This document shows positions 4,300 to 42,816 of a stretch of DNA of 42,816 nt, piece by piece. The notes under the pieces were generated by a model. The model was not told where the DNA came from and searched no databases. It saw nothing but the letters and a program-made list of their open reading frames with translations. How positions within the stretch are numbered: the stretch's first letter is position 1; each line of letters begins with the position of its first letter. This stretch comes from Candidatus Gastranaerophilales bacterium (GTDB lineage: Bacteria; Bacillota; Clostridia; Lachnospirales; Lachnospiraceae): positions 1-42,816 of the forward strand of contig JAMPHU010000023.1 of the NCBI GenBank assembly GCA_023663225.1, read 5' to 3'. The translations under genes and the position numbers were made by a program.

Positions 4300-5070
4300 C
4301 TATTTCCGGTTTTTGTCATAAATAATGCGCAGTCCATCCAAGGTCAGGGAACTGTCATAGATATCGATCGCATCCGTCTCATCCGCGATCAGCCTCCCCA
4401 ACCCTCCGGTGGCTACCACTTTCAGATTGTCTATTTTACTTTCTTCCTTCACTTTTTTGACGATATATTCTGTCTGCCCGATCTGACCGTAGACCAGGCC
4501 CGCCTGCATACTGCTTATCGTCTCCTGCGCCAGGATCGTCCTTGGCTTTTTGATCTCGATATTGGGCAGCTTGGCGGTCTGTTTCCACAGCGCTTCGGAG
4601 CTGATACGGATGCCGGGCGCGGTGATCCCCGCGGCAAACTCTCCCTTTTCTGTGATCAAATCGTAGGTGGTCGCCGTGCCAAAATCCAGCACCAGAACCG
4701 GCCCTCCATGTTTCTCATAAGCAGCGACCGCATCCACAATACGATCCGCGCCGATCGCCCGCGGATCCTCCGTGATAATGCGGATGCCTGTCTTGATCCC
4801 CGGCCCCACAATCAGCGGCTGTGTTCCGGTGTAACGCACAATGCCTCCCACAAGAGCGTGCATCACATCCGGCACCACACTGGCGATCACAGAACCTTCC
4901 AACGCCTTCGCATCGATATTACGGTTTTGCAATAATTGTGTGATCACCACCCCGTATTCATCAGAAGTTTTGGGAGTCTTGGTGGTCAGACGAAAAGTGG
5001 CCGCCAAATCCTGTCCGTCAAACACTCCGAGCGTCAGGTTCGTATTACCCACATCTATCACTAAAATCAT
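4300..5070 (-). CDS. coaX: Type III pantothenate kinase
   Basis: Phosphorylates pantothenate, the first step of coenzyme A synthesis. The 256-residue length is normal. It belongs to the ASKHA fold: the N-terminal phosphate loop [10 protein letters not shown] is at 6-15, GADRI lies mid-protein and [11 protein letters not shown] marks the second nucleotide motif. I chose ATG 5070 rather than an in-frame GTG at 5082. ATG 5070 overlaps the upstream stop codon as ATGA, has GGAGG five bases upstream, and gives the canonical start [11 protein letters not shown]. Translation is therefore probably coupled to the DUF6145-type gene. Confidence 0.95.
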
Positions 5071-5420
5071 AACGACCTCCACTCCGGATTCTGCGCAACG
5101 CCTTCCTGCAGCACCATCACCCGATAATATAGACTTAAAGACTCAAAAAGCTCCTGCCTTTGCCTGCGGATCTCCGAAATCAAAAGGCCGCTGGACACTT
5201 CATCATAATAAATATCGTCCTCTTCCGCATCGGTCTCCATGGCGATCGTACCATCCTCCTCAAAGACGATCGTGAACACACCTCCCACTTCCTCCGTAAA
5301 CAGCACGCATATAATATGCAGCTCGTCCTTGATCGAATCGGGAATCTCCTTGAACGCCTCATTAAAATAATATTTTTTCTCGTAGGCACTGGCGCCACAG
5401 AGCACCGTTCTACCCTTCAT
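5067..5420 (-). CDS. DUF6145-type protein, unknown function
   Basis: A 117-residue soluble acidic protein. It begins [19 protein letters not shown] and carries a strand-rich centre ([20 protein letters not shown]) and a helical end. From memory this is the pattern of DUF6145, a small family of Lachnospiraceae and relatives; no function is known to me. It overlaps coaX by four bases and follows birA by 18, an arrangement that suggests a cofactor-linked operon role. AAGGAG lies nine bases before ATG 5420. Confidence 0.8.
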
Positions 5421-5438
5421 TCTTCCAGACTCCTTCCG

Positions 5439-6440
5439 TCACGCATATCCATAGAGACCGCGCACGGACACTTCTCCCGCGAACACTTCTCTGATCGTGC
5501 CGTCCGCCAGTTCCACGATCAGCTCTCCGATGTCGCTGATCCCCTTCGCAACGCCTTGATACTCGCCGTGGGGATCCAGGACGCGGACCTCCTTGTCTTT
5601 GTTGACCAGACGCTTATTATAATCCTTGCGCTGTCCTGACAGATCCCCCTTCCGGCAGAAGGTCTCGTAGTCCTTCTCAAAACTTTCCATGATATTGGCG
5701 ATCAAAGTACATCTGGATATCTGTACGCCGCTCTCCGCCTCGAGGCTGGTAGCCTTCTTGGCAAGCTCTGGTTCAAACTCCTGCTTTTTCACATTGATTC
5801 CCACGCCCACGACAACATTTTGAATATAATCATGCTCGATGCTCATCTCCGTCAGGATCCCGCACACCTTTTTCCCATTGACCACCACATCGTTGGGCCA
5901 TTTGATCTCCGGGCGAAGCGCCTCATCACCTCTGTCGCCAAATGTTTTCTCCATCCCCTTCGCCACGGAAAGTCCCATGAGAAGCGTCAGCATAGGAGCC
6001 TTATCCGGCGAAAAATCCGGCTTCAAGATCAAAGTATAATATATATTTGTGTTAGCAGGACTGCTCCAAGTGCGGCCTCTCCTCCCTCTTCCGGCGGTCT
6101 GCATATCCGCCACAATCAGTGTGCCGGCCGCCGCGCCGTTTTCCGCCTCAATTTTCGCCTGAGCATTGGTGGACCCCAACTCGCTGTAAAACTTCGACTT
6201 CTGCCCCACCCACTTTGTCCGCATACGGCTGCCTAACTCATTCCGCCCATATACATCCTCAGTCTCCTCCATCAAACGGTAACCACGATTCTGCACCGCT
6301 TCGATGGGGTATCCTTCCTTCTTTAATTGATTGATGGCCTTCCAGACTGCGGTGCGGGATACTCCAAAATATTCGCTCTGCTCCTGCCCTGACACATAAT
6401 CAGCTCGTTCCCTCAAAAGTGCAAGTATTTTTGCCTTCAT
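5439..6440 (-). CDS. birA: Bifunctional biotin-protein ligase / biotin repressor
   Basis: Joins biotin to acceptor carboxylase subunits and, as biotinyl-AMP-bound dimer, represses biotin genes. The N-terminal winged helix-turn-helix (about 1-60, with EYFGVSRTAVWKAINQLKKE) marks the repressor type. The catalytic core shows GRGRRGRTW (117-125), KWPNDVVVNGKK (180-191) and GVGINV. A C-terminal SH3-like domain follows, for 333 residues in total. The start ATG 6440 has a GGAG site. It lies 15 bases after argF. A likely target is bioY in this same window, whose promoter overlaps an inverted repeat resembling BirA half-sites. Confidence 0.95.
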   Translation of the reverse strand: MKAKILALLRERADYVSGQEQSEYFGVSRTAVWKAINQLKKEGYPIEAVQNRGYRLMEETEDVYGRNELGSRMRTKWVGQKSKFYSELGSTNAQAKIEAENGAAAGTLIVADMQTAGRGRRGRTWSSPANTNIYYTLILKPDFSPDKAPMLTLLMGLSVAKGMEKTFGDRGDEALRPEIKWPNDVVVNGKKVCGILTEMSIEHDYIQNVVVGVGINVKKQEFEPELAKKATSLEAESGVQISRCTLIANIMESFEKDYETFCRKGDLSGQRKDYNKRLVNKDKEVRVLDPHGEYQGVAKGISDIGELIVELADGTIREVFAGEVSVRGLYGYA

Positions 6441-6455
6441 AATCTCTCCACTCTT

Positions 6456-7439
6456 TTACAATGTAGCAGCCATCACAGCCTTAATGGTATGCATACGGTT
6501 TTCAGCTTCTTCAAATACCTTTGACTGTTCGGACTCGAAAACCTCGTCCGTCACTTCCATTTCAGAGATCCCAAAACGTTCGCCCATCTCAGCGCCGATC
6601 TTGGTCTTCAGGTCGTGGAAAGCGGGAAGACAATGCAGAAAGATCGCCTGCTTTCCGGCACGCTCCATAACAGCTCTGTTGACCTGATAGGGGGACAGCT
6701 CTCTGATACGCTCCTCCCATACTTCCTCCGGCTCTCCCATGGAGACCCATACGTCCGTGTACACGACATCCTGATCCTTCGTACCGGTCTGCACATCTTC
6801 CGTCAATGTGATGCTGCCGCCGGTCTGCGCGGCAATCTCTCGGCATTGCTGCACCAGCTTTTCATCCGGAAAATACTTGGCTGCGGTACAGGCGGTAAAG
6901 TGCATCCCCATCTTGGCGCATGTCACCATCCAGGAATTGCCCATATTGTAGCGCGCATCACCCATATAAACCAGCTTGATGCCCTGCAGACGCCCAAAAT
7001 GTTCTCTGATCGTCAACAGATCCGCGAGCATCTGCGTGGGATGAAATTCATTGGTCAATCCGTTCCACACGGGCACTTTGGAATATTTCGCCAATTCTTC
7101 CACAATGGACTGCTCAAAGCCGCGGTATTCTATCCCTTCAAACATTCCCGCAAGCACTCTCGCCGTATCGGCAATACTCTCCTTCTTGCCGATCTGAGAA
7201 CCCGTCGGCTCCAGATAAGTGGTGCCCATTCCCAAATCATGGGCCGCCACCTCAAAGGCACAACGCGTGCGGGTACTGGTCTTTTCAAAGATCAACGCCA
7301 CGTTTTTCCCCCGTAGAGTGTCCACGGCAATGCCTCGCCTTTTCTTGTCCTTCAGCTCGGCCGCCAAATCAACCAAATAAACAATCTCTTCCGAGGTAAA
7401 ATCCAATAGTTTCAAAAAATCCCGTCCCTTTAAATCCAT
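6456..7439 (-). CDS. argF: Ornithine carbamoyltransferase
   Basis: Transfers carbamoyl from carbamoyl phosphate to ornithine to give citrulline in arginine metabolism. At 327 residues all signature sites are present: STRTR (55-59) for carbamoyl phosphate, HPTQ (133-136), SMG (233-235) for ornithine, and HCLP (269-272). The start ATG 7439 has GGAGG eight bases upstream. It is the first gene of the operon. No arcA or arcC neighbour is present, so a biosynthetic role is favoured over the arginine deiminase pathway, but sequence alone does not prove this. I found no clear ArgR box. Confidence 0.94.
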
Positions 7440-32902: not shown

Positions 32903-33844
32903 CTACTTTTCCTCCTGCTCTTCTATGCGGCCGTTGTCCATCCGGTTTAAAAAATATTCCTCCAGATCCATACAATGAAATCCCGACGAATAGACCTGCA
33001 CCTGATTTTCGACAAGAAGCCTGTTCACCCATGTGCCCTCTTGCAGATCATAGAGGCGGATCGAGCGCTTATCGCACACGCTCGCCTCCACCTGTGGAGC
33101 CTGCTCCAGGATCAACGCCAGAGCGCGCTCCACATTGTCCACCTCCACCTGAAAATAATCCCGACATTTTCCTTCCAGGACTTCTCTGCTCATCTGCTCC
33201 ACCAGTTCTCCGTCCCGTATAATGCCATAGTGAGTGGAAATCTTGCTCAATTCTCCCAAAATGTGCGAACTGATAATAAATGTCTTGCCCGCTTCATTCA
33301 ACTGAAAGATCAGTTTTCTGATCTCTCTGGTCCCCTCCGGATCCAGGCCGTTGATCGGCTCATCTAAGATCAACAGATCCGGATTGCCCAACAAGGCCAG
33401 CGCGATACCCAACCGCTGCTTCATCCCCATCGAAAAATGTCCGGCTTTCTTATTCCCTGCATCCGACAGGCCGACGATATCCAACACTCTATCCACACTC
33501 TTATCGTCAATAAGTCCCATACATTTTGCCTTCGCCACCACGTTCTGTCTTGCGGTCATACGAGGATATAAACCGACCGACTCAATCAGGCAGCCAACTC
33601 TTCTTGCAGCCATTTCGTCCTCCACCGGTCTGCCAAACAATCGCACTTCTCCCGAAGTAGGCCTTGCCAGTCCGCATAACATTTTCAAAGTCGTAGATTT
33701 TCCCGCGCCGTTTCTTCCAATAAAACCATAGATCGCACCCTCTCTCACCTTCATATCCATATGGCTTACCGCCGCCTTGGCGCCATACATCTTGGTCAGA
33801 CCGGACGTCTCCACGATGAAATGCCCCTGCTCTCTAGTCATCAC
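32903..33844 (-). CDS. ABC transporter ATP-binding protein
   Basis: Motor subunit of the ABC-2 exporter. The 313-residue protein has Walker A GRNGAGKS (43-50), signature FSMGMKQRLGIA, Walker B LLILDEPINGLDPEG and the H-loop in ISSHIL, all intact. A C-terminal extension of about 90 residues resembles that of bacitracin/lantibiotic-type exporters. The first codon is taken as GTG 33844, eight bases after AAGGAG; ATG 33841 is the alternative. Upstream lies a direct-repeat region that is probably bound by the neighbouring response regulator. Confidence 0.93.
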   Translation of the reverse strand: MMTREQGHFIVETSGLTKMYGAKAAVSHMDMKVREGAIYGFIGRNGAGKSTTLKMLCGLARPTSGEVRLFGRPVEDEMAARRVGCLIESVGLYPRMTARQNVVAKAKCMGLIDDKSVDRVLDIVGLSDAGNKKAGHFSMGMKQRLGIALALLGNPDLLILDEPINGLDPEGTREIRKLIFQLNEAGKTFIISSHILGELSKISTHYGIIRDGELVEQMSREVLEGKCRDYFQVEVDNVERALALILEQAPQVEASVCDKRSIRLYDLQEGTWVNRLLVENQVQVYSSGFHCMDLEEYFLNRMDNGRIEEQEEK

Positions 33845-33888
33845 TTACCTATCTCCTTCCGTATTGATATGATACCTATTGTAAACGG

Positions 33889-33930
33889 GAAAGGTTTAAA
33901 AAGTGCTCAGAAAGGTTTAAGAAAGATTAA
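33889..33930 (-). promoter_or_regulatory. Direct-repeat operator candidate upstream of the ABC exporter
   Basis: GAAAGGTTTAA occurs at 33889-33899 and 33910-33920, and a variant GAAAGATTAA at 33921-33930. The starts are 21 and 11 bases apart, i.e. two turns and one turn of the helix. OmpR-family regulators bind such direct repeats. TATCAT or TACAAT downstream on the minus strand could be the -10. The gene for an OmpR-type regulator is adjacent. Confidence 0.6.
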
Positions 33931-33951
33931 AGATTTGCCGTTCAAAAGACA

Positions 33952-34620
33952 TCAGGACAGCTTGAAGCCTATGCCCCAAACCGTCTGAATATAGGAATCC
34001 GTTCCGCTCTCCTTCAATTTCGCCCGAATATTGCTGATATGCACATTGATCGTCTTATCCTCCGCCAAATATTCCTCACCCCAGGCATACTCATAGATCA
34101 TCTGCTTGGAAAACACTCTGTTCGGATTGCGGATCAAAAGCTCCAAAATCAAAAACTCATGCTTTGTCAGTTCAATTTTTTTACCTGCTGCCGTCATCTC
34201 CTGCGCGTCCGGATCCAACATCCAATCTTTGTATTGACGGATCTTTTTCTCGTCCTGCACAGTTCTCCCACGACGCCTAAGCTGAACCTGGATCCGCACC
34301 AGAAGCTCAGGCAACTCAAAGGGCTTACAGATATAATCCTCCGCCCCCGCCGTAAGCACATCCACCTTACTGTCCAATCCGGTTTTGGCCGACAATACGA
34401 TCACCGGAACCTGTTTTGAGAAAAGAGAGACCAGTTCCTCCCCCGAAATGCCAGGAAGCATCAAGTCAAGCAACACCAGGTCAAACTCTTCCATGGAAAA
34501 GAGCAGCTTTCCCTCGCTGCCGGAAAATGCCTGCGTACAGACATACCCATGCTCCTCCAAATATTCCTTGAGCATCTGACTGTTGGAGGCGTCATCCTCC
34601 ACGAGCAGCAAATGTTCCAT
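33952..34620 (-). CDS. OmpR-family response regulator
   Basis: The 222-residue DNA-binding regulator has a receiver domain (1-115) with acidic pocket D9/D10, phospho-acceptor D52 in LVLLDLMLPG and the conserved lysine in VLSAKTG. A winged-helix domain (about 130-222) shows LTKHEFLILELLIRNPNRVFS. I chose ATG 34620, which follows the upstream stop codon by one base and has AAGGAG nine bases upstream. Its likely partner kinase is at 31194-32081 and its likely target the repeats just downstream, before the ABC genes. Confidence 0.93.
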   Translation of the reverse strand: MEHLLLVEDDASNSQMLKEYLEEHGYVCTQAFSGSEGKLLFSMEEFDLVLLDLMLPGISGEELVSLFSKQVPVIVLSAKTGLDSKVDVLTAGAEDYICKPFELPELLVRIQVQLRRRGRTVQDEKKIRQYKDWMLDPDAQEMTAAGKKIELTKHEFLILELLIRNPNRVFSKQMIYEYAWGEEYLAEDKTINVHISNIRAKLKESGTDSYIQTVWGIGFKLS

Positions 34621-34621
34621 A

Positions 34622-35857
34622 TCAGTCCACTCCTTCCAGCAAATACGCATCATCCGCAGAAATGCGACGTTCTTTCGTATAGATCAGCCAGTCTGTGATC
34701 CGTTCAAAGGGATAGGCGCCCTCGCTGCCCTCATGCATATCTTTCACATAGTAAGGTTCTTGCGTCAATCGGCAGAACAGACTCTCTCCCCTGACCTCCA
34801 AGAGTTCAAACCAGATATGCTCCCACTCGTTCTGCTCCTCTCTAAATTCTTCGTCGATGGCAATCCCGATCTTCACCAAGATCTTATTCTCCGGATTCTC
34901 AGCCGCTTTCAACATATAGGGCAGACGCTCTGCCGCCAACAGTTTCATCCGCTCCGTCTCACGGTTCGTGATCATATAGATCGGATTATTCTTCAAATAT
35001 TGGTCAAAAACCGATATGGGAGAACAGACCTTATCCTTGATATTTTGATTGGAAATATAAGCAAAAATGCAACAGGTATTCTGATTATGCCCTTCTTTGC
35101 GGTCCGCTTTGCCGCCCAGCATATCCTCCGGAAACCATTCCACCGCTTTCTCCCATTCCGTCAGGGTGATGATCATAGGAAGATTCGGCGCCACATTCGC
35201 CAAAAAGAACGGTTCTCCAAAGTCCGGCGCCTCTTTTTCCTCCAAAAGCCGGTTTGCAAGGCACTCCAAAATATTATAATGTTGGTTGTAATTTTCTTTT
35301 GTGGAATTTAACACTTCCAGCTCCGTGATCCCACAGCGGTTCAAACCATGGCTGTGCAGCCAAACACAGGTATCCTCCCCTGACACAGCCTGCACCGTAT
35401 AAATATATCGGGGAGCAGGCGGCACCTTGGACCCCGCTGCCAATACCACCCATTTGCCGGACAGGATCTTTTCGGAGCTATAATCTACAACGGCCAGCAT
35501 ATCAGGCACAAGAGCCGCCATGATCCGCAGTTGGGCATGGTAGGACTGCAGCGCATCCTCTCCAAACTCCATCCCCACTTCTAAGCCTACGCTCGCACTG
35601 TCTAACGCTTCCACATCCACATCCGGAAAAATATGCTGCGTTCTAAATAACTGCGGCATCTTCCATTTGGTGGGATACATTTCTATCTCATATTCCGCCT
35701 CATCCACCGTCAAAGCGATCTTGAGACCTTCCTCCATCTCGTGAGATAAAATTTTGATTCCGCGAGCCTGAGATAGTTGTTCTATCATATCTACCGCGGA
35801 CTTCAGATCGGCGGCCCTTCTGGGCACCGCACACATATATGATTTTTCCTTAGTCAA
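34622..35857 (-). CDS. DUF4026/DUF2314-type protein, unknown function
   Basis: The 411-residue soluble protein looks like a DUF4026 protein with a DUF2314-like C terminus: WEHIWFELLEVRGESLFCRL, then YYVKDMHEGSEGAYPFERI and DWLIY. These assignments come from memory of the patterns. No catalytic motif stands out. The start is TTG 35857 with GGAGG six bases upstream. Its stop codon lies one base before the response-regulator start, so translation is probably coupled, and it heads the regulator operon. A role in sensing is possible but unproven. Confidence 0.75.
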   Translation of the reverse strand: MTKEKSYMCAVPRRAADLKSAVDMIEQLSQARGIKILSHEMEEGLKIALTVDEAEYEIEMYPTKWKMPQLFRTQHIFPDVDVEALDSASVGLEVGMEFGEDALQSYHAQLRIMAALVPDMLAVVDYSSEKILSGKWVVLAAGSKVPPAPRYIYTVQAVSGEDTCVWLHSHGLNRCGITELEVLNSTKENYNQHYNILECLANRLLEEKEAPDFGEPFFLANVAPNLPMIITLTEWEKAVEWFPEDMLGGKADRKEGHNQNTCCIFAYISNQNIKDKVCSPISVFDQYLKNNPIYMITNRETERMKLLAAERLPYMLKAAENPENKILVKIGIAIDEEFREEQNEWEHIWFELLEVRGESLFCRLTQEPYYVKDMHEGSEGAYPFERITDWLIYTKERRISADDAYLLEGVD

Positions 35858-35922
35858 TGGAAGCCTCCTTCTCTGCCGCTTGCTGCAACGCCGTCGAGCA
35901 GTTCGAAAAATTTTCTTTCCTT

Positions 35923-35951
35923 ATAATATCATATTTTGATGCAAATGAAAA
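35923..35951 (-). promoter_or_regulatory. Promoter of the DUF4026-type gene and response regulator
   Basis: TTTTCA (minus, 35946-35951), 17-base spacer and TATTAT (35923-35928) preceded by TGA, an extended -10. The remainder of the gap up to 36077 is AT-rich with two short hairpins (around 35956-35969 and 35970-35990) of unknown role. Confidence 0.5.
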
Positions 35952-36077
35952 CCCTGGGGGAACACCCCTATTCCTTAAAATTGGAATATTAAAATAGTAT
36001 AGAAGATAATCAAAAATTATGGTAATATAAGATTAAACAAAAAGAAATATAATAGTATTTGACAGAAAGGCGAAAAT

Positions 36078-36674
36078 TTGAACAAGGATAATCTGAACCA
36101 ACCCAAAGATTTTATGAAAAAGATTAATATAACTGATGTGGCGATCAGCAAAGTTCCTTATATAGAATATAAAGGGTTTTCAGAAAAGCAAAATATTATT
36201 ATGCGGAGACTGACACAAGAAGTGCTCATTCTGTCAAAAGAAGAAAATCACAACAATGAAGTAGCGATCACTTTTGACATTTTCTCTGACAACCCTTTAG
36301 AAAATTATGGCATCAGTTATGGTGATGAACATAGTGTAACAATCGCGGCTGATACACTGTCAAATCATCTACTTGTATCGCAGGACAGTATTGCGGTTGT
36401 CATCTTGCATAATCATCCGTCGATACAAACATTTTCTTTGACAGATATTTCTTTTTTTCTGCAATATGATAACGTGAAAATGATGTCAGTAGTTTCAAAT
36501 TATGGCAAAGTACACTATTTGTATAAAGATAAAAAATTTGACTTAAACGAGGCGATTATTCTTTGGAAAAAATGCACCGCAGAACTTGACAGTAAATCAA
36601 CAGTAAAAGAATTGTATTATGCAGCGCTTTCTTTTCTTGCAATATGCAGTGAATCCGGAATATATTATAATTAG
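36078..36674 (+). CDS. RadC/JAB-type (JAMM) metalloprotease-like protein
   Basis: The 198-residue protein carries a JAMM metal motif, HNHPSIQTFSLTD, with H111, H113, S120 and D123; E61 or a nearby glutamate could be the catalytic base. RadC-like domains have this motif, but the helix-hairpin-helix part of RadC is missing. Relatives occur in mobile elements and toxin or ubiquitin-like systems. The start is TTG 36078, seven bases after AAAGG; a -10 TATAAT lies at 36048-36053. Its AT-rich coding contrasts with both neighbours, suggesting transfer. The function is unknown. Confidence 0.75.
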   Translation: MNKDNLNQPKDFMKKINITDVAISKVPYIEYKGFSEKQNIIMRRLTQEVLILSKEENHNNEVAITFDIFSDNPLENYGISYGDEHSVTIAADTLSNHLLVSQDSIAVVILHNHPSIQTFSLTDISFFLQYDNVKMMSVVSNYGKVHYLYKDKKFDLNEAIILWKKCTAELDSKSTVKELYYAALSFLAICSESGIYYN

Positions 36675-36739
36675 ATAGATAATTCCTTACTGCCTGTAAA
36701 AGGTATTACCAATAATATATTGTAGTAGGAGGTATGATT

Positions 36740-36922
36740 ATGTCAGCAGATATTATTTTAGATGATTGGGCATTACCTGCACCAATTGATATTCTTAGAA
36801 ACAATCAATCGAAGTATAAAATAGACAAAAGTGAATTAGACAAAAATATTCAGCAGAACCAAGAAATTATAAAACGTATGCGAAATAATGTGAAGTATAA
36901 AAAAATGTTGCAAGAAGTATAA
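36740..36922 (+). CDS. Small hypothetical protein, 60 residues
   Basis: I do not recognise it. The charged, mostly helical protein starts MSADIILDDWALPAPID and ends with a lysine-rich helix (KRMRNNVKYKKMLQEV). ATG 36740 is seven bases after AGGAGG and is preferred over ATG 36734, which is too close. It follows the JAB-type gene by 65 bases in the same AT-rich patch and may be its partner. Confidence 0.6.
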   Translation: MSADIILDDWALPAPIDILRNNQSKYKIDKSELDKNIQQNQEIIKRMRNNVKYKKMLQEV

Positions 36923-37059
36923 AGAGACGTACCATAATATGATGAAATACGAGATAGACCGCGAATTAACCAGGCTTGCAAAGCTGACAGCAATATTTGG
37001 GAAAGCGTATTTGAGAGATCAAGAGCCTGAAATGAAAGATGATCAACAAGGAGGTTATT

Positions 37060-38532
37060 ATGCAACAGGTTACGGAACAACAGATTCAGGCCATGGCTCC
37101 CAACGCGGCAGCCGCGGCAAACGGCCGGAAAATATCCCAAAAGGGCGGTTTTGTGCGGTTGGAATGTTCTGCGGACGACACCTTTTATCTGGGAGAATGT
37201 ACCGGCAGCGGGAAAAGCAACTACATTACCACCGTGGATTTCATAGACCCTGACAATCCCGTGTGCCGATGCTCCTGTCCCAGCCGTCAATTTCCCTGCA
37301 AGCATGGTCTTGCGCTTCTCTATGAGATTCTTGCAAAAAAGAATTTCGGTGTCTGTGAGATACCGGAAGATATCCTGAAAAAGCGGGAAAAGAAGCAGGC
37401 GAAAGAGGCAAAGAGCGCCACGGCTCAGAGCGCGGACGAGTTGACCGTCAGCGATCCGGAGGCGGCCAAAAAGAAAGCGTCCGCCGCCAAGAGCGCGAAG
37501 ACCGCCAAAGCCAAAAAGTTAAAAAAGCAGTTGGAAGGTCTTGATCTGGCGGCCAGACTGATACGGGAACTGACCAGAGCCGGACTCGGCGCCATGGGAG
37601 GCACGACGCTGAAAAATTATGAGCAGCTCGCCAAACAGTTGGGAGACTATTATCTGCCCGGCCCGCAACGACTGCTGAACGGATTGATTTTGGAGATCGC
37701 CGCTTTCCAGAAGGATGGCAGCGAGGGACATTACGATGCGGCGATTGCCCTCTTGGAGAAGTTCCGTACACTGGTCAAGAAATCCCAGCAATATCTGTCG
37801 GATAAATTAAAACAGGAGGATGTGGAACAGGACGATTCCCTTCTCTATGAAGAGCTGGGCGGCATCTGGAAGCTTTCCGAGCTGGAAGCTCTGGGCAGAG
37901 GAAAAGCGGATATGGATCTGATCCAACTATCCTTCTGGGTCGATTACGACGCCGCCAGAAAGGAATACATAGATACCGGATGCTGGGCGGATCTGGCGTC
38001 TGGAGAGATCTTCGTCACACACAACTATCGTCCGGTCAAGGCGTTAAAATATGTCAAGCAGGAGGATACTGTTTTTGGCGTGGCGCATGTTCCCATGGCC
38101 GTCTGTTATCCGGGGGAGGGTAATCTGCGCGTCCGCTGGGACGGCGCAAAGCTTCGTCCTGTGGAGAGCGAGGATCTGCAGAAACTCCGCACGCTGTCGG
38201 GCACTTCCCTCACAGCGGAGGCAAAGACCGCCAAGAATCTGCTGAAAAACGCCCTTGCCGATCCCTTGCATATACGCCTGATCTCATATGCCCTGTTGGG
38301 CCAGGCCGAAGAAGGCTTTGCGCTAAAGACTGAGGAAGGAGAGACTATTGCCCTGGGGGATGCGCCGGGCATGGAGCCTTCCACGGACAGGCTGGCCCTG
38401 CTGCCTGATCAAGATTTATTACAACATCAAACGCTGCTGGGAGCCTTTTATTATGACAGCGAGGCCAGACGCCTGAAAATACAGCCTCTCAGTATCATCA
38501 CCCAAGAGACCATCGTGCGTCTGCTGTATTAA
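37060..38532 (+). CDS. SWIM zinc-finger protein (YehQ-like role)
   Basis: The 490-residue protein has a SWIM finger near its N terminus: C71, C73, C80 and H82 in CRCSCPSRQFPCKHGLALL, a CxC...CxH zinc site that binds DNA or protein. A lysine/alanine-rich linker (about 105-155) follows, then a long, mainly helical region of unknown fold. AAGGAGG lies before ATG 37060; I prefer it over upstream ATG 37039. It heads a co-directional set with a helical protein, a MoxR ATPase and a DUF5682-type gene, the same kind of set as E. coli yehLMPQ, where YehQ is the SWIM member. Confidence 0.85.
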   Translation: MQQVTEQQIQAMAPNAAAAANGRKISQKGGFVRLECSADDTFYLGECTGSGKSNYITTVDFIDPDNPVCRCSCPSRQFPCKHGLALLYEILAKKNFGVCEIPEDILKKREKKQAKEAKSATAQSADELTVSDPEAAKKKASAAKSAKTAKAKKLKKQLEGLDLAARLIRELTRAGLGAMGGTTLKNYEQLAKQLGDYYLPGPQRLLNGLILEIAAFQKDGSEGHYDAAIALLEKFRTLVKKSQQYLSDKLKQEDVEQDDSLLYEELGGIWKLSELEALGRGKADMDLIQLSFWVDYDAARKEYIDTGCWADLASGEIFVTHNYRPVKALKYVKQEDTVFGVAHVPMAVCYPGEGNLRVRWDGAKLRPVESEDLQKLRTLSGTSLTAEAKTAKNLLKNALADPLHIRLISYALLGQAEEGFALKTEEGETIALGDAPGMEPSTDRLALLPDQDLLQHQTLLGAFYYDSEARRLKIQPLSIITQETIVRLLY

Positions 38533-38555
38533 GAAGGATAAGGAGGAAAGCATCA

Positions 38556-40505
38556 ATGGATATTTCACCGTTATATGAGCTGCGTGCAAGACTCCGCGCC
38601 GCCATGATCGCAGGCGCCGGTCTGCTCTCGGAGGATTTCCGCCTGAGGCGGGCGGCGGAATCTTTCGCGCCTTTGGAAAAAGCTTCGCCGATTTTTGCCA
38701 AGATCGGGCAGTTGACAGCCGCGCTCTTATCGCCGGAGACGGAGGACAAAGAGGACGCTCTGCTGGACGCAATCACCCTGACGGATGCTGTGCTGTGCAC
38801 CCAGGGAACCGTGTCAGTGGAGGGGGAAATAGAACCGATTGCCTGCAGCGGATGGGGCAGCGTCGTCACCAATGCGCCTTATTCCGTGGTCAAGACATTG
38901 ACAGAGTCTCTGACGACTTCCGGCAGCGGACATTACAGCTATGTGGAAGAAATCCACAGAGACCACCCCGAACTTTTTAAGGATTATCGCGTCAAGGCCG
39001 CCATGATCCAGGCGCTCGGCGCTTCCTACACAGAGCTTGCGGACGCGGTGACTGGATGGCTGAAAGAGGAGGATGCATCCATTCTGCCCCTGTTATGGAA
39101 AGACTTTGATCCGAAAGGGAAAAAGGAAATGGTTCGCCGCATCCATGTGATGTCGGCGATAGACGCGAAAGCATCCAACGCATTTTTTGTAAAAATGCTG
39201 CCGGAAGCGGAGAAAGAGGTACGCCAGGCTTTGATTTTTGCGCTGCGCTGCCACCCCGAAAATATAGATCTGCTTCTGGATCTGACTAAGACGGAAAAAG
39301 GAAACGCCAAAAAAATCGCCTACTACGCTCTGGCATATATGGAGGACGCGAAAGCGGAAGCTGCTTTCACAGAACTTTATGAGAAAAAGCCTGAGGAGGC
39401 CATGCAATATCTGGTTTATGTGGAAACGAAATGGGCTTCTCGTTTTGTAGCCCAAAAGCTAAAGGAACAATTATCGCCCTGGACAGAGATAAGCGCCGAA
39501 CCTGTATTGACTCCAGAACAGGAAATCCTGTTGGGCAAGATTCTGGCGGCTCTGCCCGGCAAGAGCGGCGAGGAAATCTGCGATAGTTTCCGCATGGCTG
39601 CCAATTTGGAGGATCGTCTGCATGTCGCTTATAAGGGACAAGTCACTGTGTGTGTTGTCGGCGGCGTCAGAGACATCATCATGGCAGGCATGAATTTGCG
39701 AAACAGAGAAAACACTTTTACGTTTCAGACCGCGATCCCCTATCTGCTGCACCAGGCATTGCACTGTCACCCGGATGAAGCGCTCTGCGCCCTTGCCGTG
39801 GAACTGTACGAGGCAGAGGGCAGGCGAGAGGGCAAACGCAAGGCATATTTTCCCGCCGCGTTGACGGCACAGCTCTTGACATCAGGAGACTGCTGCGACT
39901 GGCTGGAAGAACAATTAAAAAAGAAACTGTTGCAATCCAATCAAGACTTCTATCCTCTTCTGGCCAGAGGAATCGACGGTCTCAGATTCAGCGAGAGGGA
40001 AAATGCATATGTGCTGCGCATAGAGCGGCCCCACCGCCCCCATCCTTCGGGAGAATCGATGCCGGAATATTGTCAGCCGGTCAAACAAGATATCACCGGA
40101 CGCTTTACGGACATTCTCACTCGCTGTCAGGATCAAGATATCGATCAGGGATTGATGAACTGCATCAACAGCGAGGACGAAGCCTACTGCCGCAAGTTGG
40201 GGGATTATTTTTACAAGCGCGCTCCCAAAATAAAAGCTTCCAGAGATTATCTGCTGGCCCTGAAACGTTGCAAGTATCCCAAGTGTGAGGGTCTCGCGGT
40301 CAGTTATTTCTCCGATATGGGTTATACTCACTATTTCTCGGAGATTTATGGCTACGCGGCGATATTGCCGGGAGACAAGGCTGCTGTCTATGAGGAGATA
40401 CAGAGAGTCTACGACCTATATAAACAGGGACGGATCAAAATGCGGGACTCCGCCCAGGCGGAAGAGCGATTTTTGACCTATTTAGAGGAATTACGCACTT
40501 CATAG
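38556..40505 (+). CDS. Large helical (HEAT-like) protein of the SWIM-MoxR set
   Basis: The 649-residue soluble protein is predicted mostly helical. Repeated helix pairs around 150-330 (for example VRQALIFALRCHPENIDLL and AKKIAYYALAYMEDAKAEAA) suggest HEAT-like repeats and a scaffold role. No catalytic motif was seen. In similar clusters this position is often occupied by a DUF5691 or HEAT-repeat protein; I cannot confirm membership. It starts 23 bases after the SWIM gene with an AAGGAGG site and is followed by the ATPase after 47 bases. Confidence 0.75.
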   Translation: MDISPLYELRARLRAAMIAGAGLLSEDFRLRRAAESFAPLEKASPIFAKIGQLTAALLSPETEDKEDALLDAITLTDAVLCTQGTVSVEGEIEPIACSGWGSVVTNAPYSVVKTLTESLTTSGSGHYSYVEEIHRDHPELFKDYRVKAAMIQALGASYTELADAVTGWLKEEDASILPLLWKDFDPKGKKEMVRRIHVMSAIDAKASNAFFVKMLPEAEKEVRQALIFALRCHPENIDLLLDLTKTEKGNAKKIAYYALAYMEDAKAEAAFTELYEKKPEEAMQYLVYVETKWASRFVAQKLKEQLSPWTEISAEPVLTPEQEILLGKILAALPGKSGEEICDSFRMAANLEDRLHVAYKGQVTVCVVGGVRDIIMAGMNLRNRENTFTFQTAIPYLLHQALHCHPDEALCALAVELYEAEGRREGKRKAYFPAALTAQLLTSGDCCDWLEEQLKKKLLQSNQDFYPLLARGIDGLRFSERENAYVLRIERPHRPHPSGESMPEYCQPVKQDITGRFTDILTRCQDQDIDQGLMNCINSEDEAYCRKLGDYFYKRAPKIKASRDYLLALKRCKYPKCEGLAVSYFSDMGYTHYFSEIYGYAAILPGDKAAVYEEIQRVYDLYKQGRIKMRDSAQAEERFLTYLEELRTS

Positions 40506-40552
40506 CAAGTGTCATTATGCGAATGGTATAAAGAAAGGAACCCTACAAAGTT

Positions 40553-41635
40553 ATGGAAGAACAATTACAACGGCTGCCGGCCGAGCAGCTTTTTCAAAGA
40601 GAACTTGACGCGCTGGCCGCTGCCGAGAAAGATCCCGTTCCCACGGGTTGGCGGATGTCTCCCCGCTCCGTCCGCACATACATCTGCGGAGGCAAAGTGG
40701 GGGATATGGAGATCACCCCAAAATACATCGGACATGAACGGCTGGTGGAAATTGCCATAGCCACTTTGGTCACAGACCGAGCGCTTTTGCTGATCGGAGA
40801 GCCGGGCACGGCTAAGAGCTGGCTCTCAGAGCATCTGACCGCCGCCATCAACGGGGATTCCACCAAAGTGATCCAGGGCACGGCCGGAACCACGGAGGAA
40901 CAAATCCGCTATTCCTGGAATTACGCCATGTTGATCGCAAACGGCCCTTCCAGGGAGGCCATGCTGAAAAGTCCTGTGTTTCACGCCATGGAGACGGGAA
41001 CCATCGCCAGACTGGAAGAGATCTCCCGATGCGCTTCCGAAGTGCAGGATGCGTTGATCTCCATTTTGTCGGAAAAAAGGATCTCCGTGCCGGAACTCAG
41101 TATGGAAGTTCCCGCCAAGAAGGGTTTTGCCGTGATCGCCACAGCCAACACCAGAGACAAGGGCGTCAATGAAATGTCCGCGGCGTTGAAGCGTCGTTTT
41201 AATATCGTAGTGCTCCCCACTCCCGCCGATCTGGAATCTGAAATGGAGATCGTCCGCACCAGAGTGGCACAGCTTTCCGCCGGACTGGATCTGAACGCCT
41301 CTCTGCCGGAGTCCGAAGTGGTGGAAAAGGTTTGCACGATTTTCAGAGAGCTTCGCAGCGGAGAAACTTACGACCGCAGTCAGAAGTTAAAACCCACTTC
41401 GGGTGTGCTCTCCACTGCGGAGGCGATCTCTCTGTTATGCAACAGTATGGCTCTGGCGGGGAGTTTTGGCAGCGGGCATATCAGCGACGAAGATCTCGCC
41501 GCCGGACTGCAGGGGGCCGTCATCAAAGACGAAGAAAAAGATAATGTAGCCTGGAAGGAATATCTGGAAAATGTGATGAAGAAGCGGGGTTCCCATTGGA
41601 GCGGATTGTATCAGGCATGTAGAGGATTATTATGA
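40553..41635 (+). CDS. MoxR-type AAA+ ATPase (YehL-like role)
   Basis: The 360-residue ATPase has Walker A GEPGTAKS (82-89), a Walker B-like segment IARLEEISR (151-159), sensor 1 ATANTRDKG with N199, and a likely arginine finger in ALKRRF (211-216). Walker B reads EE where most MoxR proteins have DE, so the metal-binding residue is a glutamate. MoxR ATPases usually work with a von Willebrand A protein to remodel or insert cofactors into targets. Its stop overlaps the next gene start (ATGA), so coupling to the DUF5682-type protein is strong. Confidence 0.9.
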   Translation: MEEQLQRLPAEQLFQRELDALAAAEKDPVPTGWRMSPRSVRTYICGGKVGDMEITPKYIGHERLVEIAIATLVTDRALLLIGEPGTAKSWLSEHLTAAINGDSTKVIQGTAGTTEEQIRYSWNYAMLIANGPSREAMLKSPVFHAMETGTIARLEEISRCASEVQDALISILSEKRISVPELSMEVPAKKGFAVIATANTRDKGVNEMSAALKRRFNIVVLPTPADLESEMEIVRTRVAQLSAGLDLNASLPESEVVEKVCTIFRELRSGETYDRSQKLKPTSGVLSTAEAISLLCNSMALAGSFGSGHISDEDLAAGLQGAVIKDEEKDNVAWKEYLENVMKKRGSHWSGLYQACRGLL

Positions 41636-42816
41636 CACACCCTTATGTATTTGGTATTCGTCACCTGTCGCCTGCGGGCGCATGGCATCTGCGGCGATTT
41701 TTGACAGAGAAACAACCGCGTCTGGTTCTGGTGGAAGGGCCCGACGATCTAAGTGAATTGATGGCGGATATCACTCGGCCGCAGACAAAACCCCCCATCG
41801 CCATCCTTGCCTACACAAAGGAGGCTCCCGTGCGGACGATCCTTTACCCTTTTGCGGAATATTCCCCGGAATACCAAGCGATCGTTTGGTGCAAGGAGCA
41901 TGGGGTACCGTGCCGCTTTATCGATCTGCCGTCCGATGTTTTTCTGGCGCTGCCATCCGGCCGGCGGAACCAGACGGAGGGAGAGGAACGGCGCGTGAAC
42001 GCTTATGAACTTTTGGATCGCCAGACAGGGGCGGACGGGCAGGAAAGTTTTTGGGAACGAACCATGGAACATGCGCAGGACGCGGACGGATATTACAAAG
42101 GCGCCGCGCTGTTTGGCTCCAATCTGCGGGAACTCAACCAGGAATCGGGGCAGGATGCAGACTGGCCGGAGACTCTGGTGAGAGAAGCATATATGCGGCG
42201 TCAGATACAGACTGCGCTGAAGGAAGGATTTGCGCCGGAAGAAATCGTAGTCATCACGGGCGCTTATCATGTGGCCGGACTTTTGTCGGAGGACGCTCTG
42301 CCCATGACGGCGGAAGAATCGGCCTCTCTGCCCCGAGTGGAGGCCAGCCACACCCTCATGCCCTATTCCTATTACCGATTGTCCGCCCGATCCGGATATG
42401 GGGCCGGCAATAAAGCGCCGGCATATTATTCCCTGCTGTGGGAAGCCTTGCAGAGAGGTGATTTGCACTATGCGTCACAGGCTTATCTCTCGCGGATCGC
42501 CGGATATCAGAGAGAACATGGAACCCCCGTATCCTCTGCAGAGGTGATCGAGGCTGTCCGCCTGGCTGACTCGCTGTCAGGAATCAGGGGCGGCAAAGCT
42601 CCCGTTCTGCGCGATCTGCGGGATGCGGCAATCACTTGTCTGGGCGGGGGCAGCTTTTCTGCCGTCAGTCTGGCCGTAGCGGACACAGAGATCGGCGCCG
42701 CTATCGGTTCTCTGCCGGAGGGTGTCAGCCGCACCAGTATTCAGGAAGATTTTTACAGACAAATGAACTACCCCGCAGCAAGCTGCGGGGTATCGAAGCT
42801 CCGCGCTCGTCACATA
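41632..42816 (+). CDS. DUF5682-type protein (YehM-like), partial or interrupted
   Basis: The frame is open from ATG 41632 to the window end (395 codons, no stop). It begins PYVFGIRHLSPAGAWHLRRF and LVLVEGPDDLSELM, and later has VVITGAYHVAGLL; the GIRH and GAYH motifs vaguely recall the TraB/Tiki/EreA fold (speculative). The family is usually about twice this length. The last 16 codons (from 42769) read through a perfect palindrome and no longer look like the family, so the gene may be interrupted there. It overlaps the ATPase gene by four bases. A von Willebrand A gene would be expected next. Confidence 0.8.
   Translation, partial: MTHPYVFGIRHLSPAGAWHLRRFLTEKQPRLVLVEGPDDLSELMADITRPQTKPPIAILAYTKEAPVRTILYPFAEYSPEYQAIVWCKEHGVPCRFIDLPSDVFLALPSGRRNQTEGEERRVNAYELLDRQTGADGQESFWERTMEHAQDADGYYKGAALFGSNLRELNQESGQDADWPETLVREAYMRRQIQTALKEGFAPEEIVVITGAYHVAGLLSEDALPMTAEESASLPRVEASHTLMPYSYYRLSARSGYGAGNKAPAYYSLLWEALQRGDLHYASQAYLSRIAGYQREHGTPVSSAEVIEAVRLADSLSGIRGGKAPVLRDLRDAAITCLGGGSFSAVSLAVADTEIGAAIGSLPEGVSRTSIQEDFYRQMNYPAASCGVSKLRARHI
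42769..42792. repeat. Perfect GC-rich palindrome at the window edge, possible REP-like or element end
   Basis: TACCCCGCAGC (42769-42779) and GCTGCGGGGTA (42782-42792) are perfect 11-base arms around AA. It lies inside the DUF5682 frame. The design resembles dispersed palindromic repeats of clostridial genomes, but only one copy is visible here. Confidence 0.6.

Follow-up and report, generated by a model that had tools for sequence, protein, structure and literature searches.

A YehL-type MoxR gene cassette at a Lachnospiraceae contig end, with a DUF5682 protein whose N-terminal domain matches the TraB/Tiki hydrolase superfamily

We describe a gene cassette at the end of contig JAMPHU010000023.1 (C27), part of a Candidatus Gastranaerophilales bacterium assembly (GCA_023663225.1; 3.29 Mb in 111 contigs) that is assigned to the Lachnospiraceae in the GTDB lineage. 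The window, as the whole analysed stretch of 42,816 nucleotides is called here, carries in its last 5.8 kb four co-directional genes encoding a SWIM zinc-finger protein, a HEAT-repeat protein, a MoxR-type ATPase and the 5′ part of a DUF5682 protein. Judged from sequence, these appear to be four parts of a widespread five-part bacterial module of the already known YehL type, the fifth part being a von Willebrand A (VWA) protein. The N-terminal domain of DUF5682 (~230 residues) matches the TraB/Tiki hydrolase superfamily, which is the main, apparently new, result of the analysis. The features at the window end are as follows.

37060..38532, plus strand: SWIM zinc-finger protein, 490 amino acids, with a single CxC...CxH finger (Pfam, homology)
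38556..40505, plus strand: HEAT-repeat helical protein, 649 amino acids (Pfam HEAT_2; PDB matches)
40553..41635, plus strand: MoxR-type AAA+ ATPase, 360 amino acids (Pfam AAA_5 and bpMoxR; identity to YehL)
41632..42765, plus strand: 5′ part of the DUF5682 gene, with the Tiki/TraB-like domain and the start of the C-terminal region (Pfam, profile comparison)
42762..42816, no strand assigned: hairpin-bearing repeat at the contig end (repeat copy on contig C34; hairpin z −3.74)

The four protein identities that an earlier note had proposed from the letters of this DNA were borne out by a profile search, with Pfam matches to SWIM (PF04434, E 8.6e-7), HEAT_2 (E 9.4e-7), AAA_5 (E 5.4e-38, with the bpMoxR model also above its cut-off) and DUF5682 (E 1e-87, profile positions 1–361 of 727). 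The open reading frame (ORF) coordinates confirm that the four genes lie on a single strand, the first three spaced 23 and 47 bases apart and the last two overlapping by 4 bases. The SWIM start at ATG 37060 is preferred over the mechanical ORF start at 37039 because a Shine-Dalgarno-like AAGGAGG precedes it. The contig terminates inside the DUF5682 gene, whose reading frame leaves the family near 42765, at the onset of the hairpin repeat. The remainder of DUF5682 (profile 372–716) is found on contig C109 (locus L008) of the same assembly, at 5510–6562 on the minus strand. Behind it lies a gene for a 396-amino-acid VWA protein, and this is the gene that the earlier note had proposed to look for past 42816.

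The assignment of DUF5682 comes from profile-profile comparison by hhalign, in which E-values refer to single comparisons. A DUF5682 alignment (18 of 20 loci kept by a motif filter) matched TraB/PrgY/GumN at a probability of 95% and a score of 64.5, and a repeat without motif selection or trimming, with one intended row (L137) empty, gave 93% and 66.9. Control scores were 9–20 for 20 column shuffles, 12–16 for 12 further shuffles, 15.5–26.4 for six unrelated alignments and 15.3 for a reversed alignment. In the alignment, GxRH lies opposite GSxH, the Glu of VEGP opposite that of the TraB VE motif, RExxM opposite RNxxM, and GxYH opposite GAxH; the window residues at the Tiki positions are H11, E35, R184 and H213. 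These His, Glu, Arg and His residues are invariant in all 56 aligned rows (52 distinct), which represent Lachnospiraceae, other Clostridia, Fusobacterium, Deinococcus, Rhizobium, Methylosinus, Agrobacterium and E. coli YehM. A motif-spacing pattern missed 4 of 47 DUF5682 sequences, yet the same four residues are conserved in them. In a Tiki-superfamily peptidase, activity depends on the corresponding His-Glu pair, Arg and second His (PMC6254334). Of the 2His/2Glu motif, both His and the first Glu were placed in DUF5682. The Pfam ChaN model matches 8 of 36 relatives (best E 1.8e-4) and the TraB model 3 of 36, both weakly. The N-terminal domain has the GxxH, E, RxxxM and GxxH pattern of TraB/PrgY/GumN and ChaN; unlike these families, DUF5682 continues into a long C-terminal region and, wherever seen, adjoins a MoxR gene. 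The likeness is one at superfamily level only. If the assignment is right, an operon of E. coli K-12 encodes a predicted hydrolase whose catalytic residues can be named, which opens the way to point mutants and activity assays.

Conservation of the cassette was examined in 80 loci, the best of at least 494 relatives obtained in a genome scan with a MoxR alignment. These loci have a MoxR identity of 80–96%, and their names are those of Lachnospiraceae, Oscillospiraceae and other Clostridia. The gene neighbourhood is kept across genomes, a point the earlier note had marked for checking: all five components are present in 59/80 loci, and 47/80 have one copy each in the order SWIM-HEAT-MoxR-DUF5682-VWA, sometimes with intervening genes. 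Most of the remaining 21/80 have lost genes at a contig end. In 20 of 78 pairs, the MoxR and DUF5682 genes share exactly 4 bases. HEAT is present as two or three genes of complete or almost complete length in 8/80 loci, and the VWA gene is placed upstream in L123. The same five-gene order with a HEAT-type protein is also found in Fusobacterium vincentii. Within the genus, 16 of 37 genomes carry a system, either in the window order (six genomes, some partial) or as MoxR-DUF5682-VWA-SWIM-DUF4132 (ten genomes, one cut after DUF5682). Within the family, 43 of 396 genomes have DUF5682; within the phylum it was detected in 8 of 299, five of these above the family cut-off. The patchy presence within the genus is consistent with the accessory location that had been suggested for these genes.

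Several loci hold additional genes within the cassette. RtcB RNA ligase genes lie between DUF5682 and VWA in two close relatives (L099:3499–4695 and L102:13398–14594), type I restriction HSDR_N-like genes occupy the same interval in L102 (14482–15834) and L104 (4327–5532), and L066 carries an AAA plus PD-(D/E)XK nuclease-like gene (4417–5988). A single match in the phage collection, MT835988.1 (L189), an unverified 'Bacteriophage sp.' metagenomic record, has MoxR-DUF5682-VWA; its neighbouring ORFs look chromosomal by eye, and it is probably a bacterial contig misfiled as phage. Mobile or viral carriage of the cassette was rejected on these chromosomal-looking neighbours and on the lack of any cassette relative among the viral contigs searched.

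The window MoxR shares 40% identity with E. coli YehL over 357 amino acids and 20% with RavA over 120. Judged against these two proteins only, it appears to fall in the YehL subfamily, one of the seven subfamilies into which MoxR proteins are divided (PMC3893208). The DUF5682 and VWA genes expected of a YehL-subfamily operon are both present, the VWA gene of the window genome being on another contig; the VWA protein is 31% identical to E. coli YehP, and DUF5682 is homologous to YehM. No study of YehL function was found in the open-licence literature, subscription papers being mostly outside the search, and no mention of DUF5682 or DUF5691 was found in the open-licence literature either. Within that literature, the yeh gene names are mentioned together in two genome papers on other subjects.

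The E. coli yehLMPQ genes with yehI (DUF4132), and the yeh-type operons of the window's own genus, have homologous MoxR, DUF5682 and VWA genes in the same mutual order, and YehM shares the H, E, R and H residues of DUF5682 with the window cassette. In contrast to the window, yeh-type operons have the SWIM gene downstream rather than upstream of VWA, with two CxC...CxH motifs in the alignment, and DUF4132 where the window has HEAT; MoxR identity is 40–46%. No relationship of the window SWIM protein to YehQ was detected (no BLAST match; hhalign probability 1.8%). For HEAT against DUF4132, hhalign aligned a helical stretch of 61 columns at a probability of 7% and a score of 35.9; the 15 shuffles reached 25.5 at most, so a remote repeat relationship between the two may exist. 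Mutual exclusivity of the window-order (type A) and yeh-type systems was suggested by the first 61 genomes and then rejected. Both score classes of DUF5682 genes, as told apart by bit score only, are present in three genomes (G531, G594 and G625), and type A and yeh-type are therefore better seen as separate systems than as alternatives.

Closer counterparts were found among plasmids, where eight regions with a related MoxR were inspected out of 40 records found. Complete SWIM-DUF5691-MoxR-DUF5682-VWA cassettes occur in Deinococcus and Rhizobium, and partial ones in Methylosinus and Hymenobacter. Deinococcus taeanensis plasmid p_TS293_3 (L182) and Rhizobium sophoriradicis plasmid pCC511_2 (L183) have the same five-gene order and direction as the window type, with homologous SWIM, MoxR (57% and 54% identity, respectively), DUF5682 and VWA; they differ in having DUF5691 where the window has HEAT and, in D. 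taeanensis, an additional small gene between MoxR and DUF5682. The MoxR, VWA, DUF5682 and SWIM proteins of the window match these cassettes better than the yeh group, and the two SWIM families align at an hhalign probability of 99.7% (E 2e-26). From this order and these closer matches it follows that HEAT fills an existing slot. A relationship of HEAT to DUF5691 was not supported (hhalign score 18.9 against shuffles of 11.1–19.0), and Pfam DUF5691 has no match in the window HEAT, nor in two divergent HEAT proteins at E 10. Across phyla, the slot would then be filled by unrelated or unrecognisably diverged proteins. The earlier description of the cassette as a clostridial yeh version with an added HEAT subunit therefore holds in part: the relationship to yehLMPQ stands through MoxR, VWA and DUF5682, whereas a separate yeh-type operon exists in the same genus, and gene order and closest matches are those of the DUF5691 cassettes.

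The individual proteins retain the motifs of their families. The CxC...CxH finger is present in all 62 SWIM proteins of at least 430 amino acids among the 80 loci. The window MoxR has Walker A (GEPGTAKS) at residue 82 and ALKRRF at 211, each kept in 79/80 MoxR proteins; for Walker B, a first pattern matched 20/80 and a looser one 80/80. The metal-ion-dependent adhesion site (MIDAS) motif D-x-S-x-S is found in 69/69 VWA proteins and a GGGTD pattern in 56/69. Pfam HEAT_2 matches 37 of 45 relatives, and alpha-helical repeat proteins are among the PDB sequence matches of the HEAT protein. In the 53/80 loci with all five genes full length, median pairwise identity is 33% for HEAT, 56% for SWIM, 62% for DUF5682, 75% for VWA and 81% for MoxR. 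The first ~280 positions of HEAT are better conserved than the variable C-terminal part, and we favour a reading in which the conserved half serves docking and the variable half recognition. The HEAT slot would accordingly mark where specificity may lie.

Taken together, the reading we prefer, tentatively and at somewhat less than an even chance, is that the five proteins of the cassette form a YehL-type machine that uses ATP to remodel its clients and cuts them, with DUF5682 as its Tiki-type hydrolase. MoxR would form a hexamer, a ring acting on its VWA partner, and VWA would couple it to the client, as NorD does for NorQ; the two are described as acting as a pair (PMC13036017). Client recognition or holding could fall to SWIM and HEAT, with specificity coming from the variable C-terminal part of HEAT, and DUF5682 might cleave the client, once remodelled, at a peptide or ester bond. 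Several observations weigh against this. The window's Pfam TraB match reaches 15.1 bits, under the 26.8 cut-off, the DUF5682 hidden Markov model fails to retrieve E. coli YbaP (E 1.4), and among PDB sequences there is no match to DUF5682 or SWIM and none of significance to VWA. HEAT divergence tracks MoxR divergence in the 53 loci (rank correlation 0.74), and low HEAT conservation could reflect weak constraint instead of specificity. In L071, the 4 kb preceding the three HEAT genes show no SWIM gene. Characterised MoxR-VWA pairs, moreover, act mainly in maturation or metal insertion, not in proteolysis.

This last point leads to the main rival, which we hold to be somewhat unlikely, namely that MoxR and VWA mature DUF5682. 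They would insert metal into it or fold it, after which DUF5682 would act alone, with HEAT and SWIM as assembly factors. Remodelling or metal insertion is the typical activity of MoxR-VWA pairs (PMC13036017; PMC3893208), the VWA protein matches VWA_CoxE (E 1.1e-43), and DUF5682 keeps beside MoxR wherever both are seen, as a client could. Tiki is described as metal dependent and another superfamily member as not (PMC6254334). Against this rival, the fast-evolving HEAT protein with its tandem copies (8/80 loci) suggests variable clients rather than one fixed client. RavA-ViaA, NorQ-NorD and CoxD-CoxE resemble the window system in joining a MoxR ATPase to a VWA partner, with the VWA_CoxE domain in common, but carry no DUF5682. 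The resemblance to RavA-ViaA, the pair compared by sequence, is distant, at the RavA identity given above and 22% over 143 amino acids between VWA and ViaA.

The remodelling and cutting machine also has to be weighed against a conflict or defence system akin to the MoxR-vWA ternary systems, in which DUF5682 would be the effector and SWIM and HEAT the sensor, a reading we consider improbable. Those systems, proposed as conflict systems, likewise join MoxR and VWA with further components (Kaur et al., 2020; PMC7159879), and the bpMoxR match above cut-off, the patchy distribution, the variable HEAT and the cargo genes (nuclease-like in L102, L104 and L066; RtcB in L099) would fit such a role. The window system departs from them in that VMAP, iSTAND, FtsH and beta-propeller domains are not among the Pfam matches of its components, its VWA has no fused effector, and effector swapping, the mark of such systems, is not seen, DUF5682 being constant. 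The text of that eLife study mentions neither SWIM nor TraB (PMC7159879). No system protein matches PADLOC 2.0.0 at E 0.001, though weaker matches exist (best E 0.0018); ten flanking representatives gave no PADLOC match in eight cases and matches via shared ATPase or response-regulator domains in two. With the viral contigs searched also lacking a relative, phage defence is weakly supported.

SWIM fingers can bind nucleic acid, and a role in DNA damage or nucleic-acid remodelling, in which SWIM and HEAT would bind nucleic acid while the ATPase clears protein-DNA complexes, was weighed as well and appears very improbable. In Deinococcus radiodurans, WGR and DUF4132 proteins, which are yeh-type partners, are induced on loss of the repressor DdrO (PMC8533742). 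WGR and DUF4132 belong, however, to the yeh-type arrangement and neither was found in the type-A core, which also contains no helicase or nuclease. The idea of a DNA-stress or defence machine, as first put forward for these genes, hence finds little support, there being no PADLOC match at E 0.001 and no relative among the viral contigs searched, even if nuclease-like cargo is present in a few loci.

A more specific version of the cutting machine is suggested by neighbouring genes in what is probably one lineage, and we regard it as very doubtful. In this version the cassette would be an ATP-driven maker of N-degrons: SWIM and HEAT would select the client, MoxR and VWA remodel it and DUF5682 clip it internally, after which Aat would tag the new N-terminus and ClpS pass the product to ClpA for destruction. 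Genes for ClpS and ClpA lie downstream of VWA in the same direction in 11/80 loci (L059, L060, L064–L067, L070–L072, L075 and L079), with Aat too in 10 of the 11; at least 4.5 kb past VWA is visible in 47/80. The spacing from VWA to ClpS is −20 to 107 bases in 10 of the 11 loci and 1.8 kb in L070. The ClpA proteins are closest to the NCBIfam ClpA model, slightly below its cut-off. All seven ClpS genomes of a first genus sample are among the 16 of 37 with a system (Fisher p 0.0011), and in the family sample ClpS occurs in 31 of 396 genomes, 9 among the 43 that have DUF5682 and 22 among the 353 that lack it (p 0.003); both tests ignore kinship and genome size, and the two samples share genome G000. 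The link hints at a concrete pathway, and the proposal, if true, would imply selective protein clearance in Clostridia and suggest a role for E. coli YehLMPQ.

Other findings argue against the N-degron link. In a tree of 78/80 loci plus the window, the ClpS-linked loci form one group, apart from three members without ClpS-ClpA, and require only two changes, so they probably reflect one gain and one loss. A genome of the same genus (G386) has ClpS without DUF5682, outside the genus only one of six ClpS genomes has the DUF5682 system, and four of the seven ClpS genomes of the genus hold a yeh-type operon. In the three type-A genomes inspected (G000, G005 and G036), ClpS-ClpA is on a different contig from the system, and G000 has no Aat match.

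The window's own copy of the cassette may be inactive, since its DUF5682 gene is split in two at the repeat. The terminal window bases fold as a hairpin, with 0/200 shuffles better (z −3.74). The 53 bases at 42762–42814 are identical to C34:1–53, at a contig end, and a similar GCAGCAAGCTGCGGGG stretch was seen directly at the edge of C109. The hairpin repeat ACCCCGCAGCAAGCTGCGGGGTA stands at three contig ends (window 42762–42816, C34:1–53 and the C109 edge); it may represent the ends of an IS200/IS605-like element, which it resembles. The C34 copy sits immediately ahead of a gene that looks PIN-domain-like by eye. On the simplest reading, an inserted repeat element would have broken the assembly and perhaps the gene too. 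That the window copy is a decaying pseudogene cassette without present function, as two DUF5682 pieces on two contigs, each ended by the hairpin repeat, might suggest, is very unlikely in our view. The four other reading frames are intact, the DUF5682 gene is uninterrupted in relatives, and an assembly break at the repeat could explain the split, which in any case concerns one genome and not the system.

The AT-rich patch noted earlier beside the cassette was confirmed, with 31–35% G+C in 500-base windows starting at 35750–36500 and 49–60% from 37000 on. An AT-rich 198-amino-acid ORF lies in this upstream region (36078–36674, plus strand), its only Pfam match being DUF3242 at E 0.009 and its only PADLOC match capP at E 0.014, and its HNHPS...S..D stretch resembles by eye a JAB/RadC-type metal site. 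No RNA element reaches its gathering score within window positions 33000–42816. At the HEAT-MoxR junction (window 40501–40529), a near match of 28–29 bases (96–97%) is found on C20 and C56, two other contigs of this genome.

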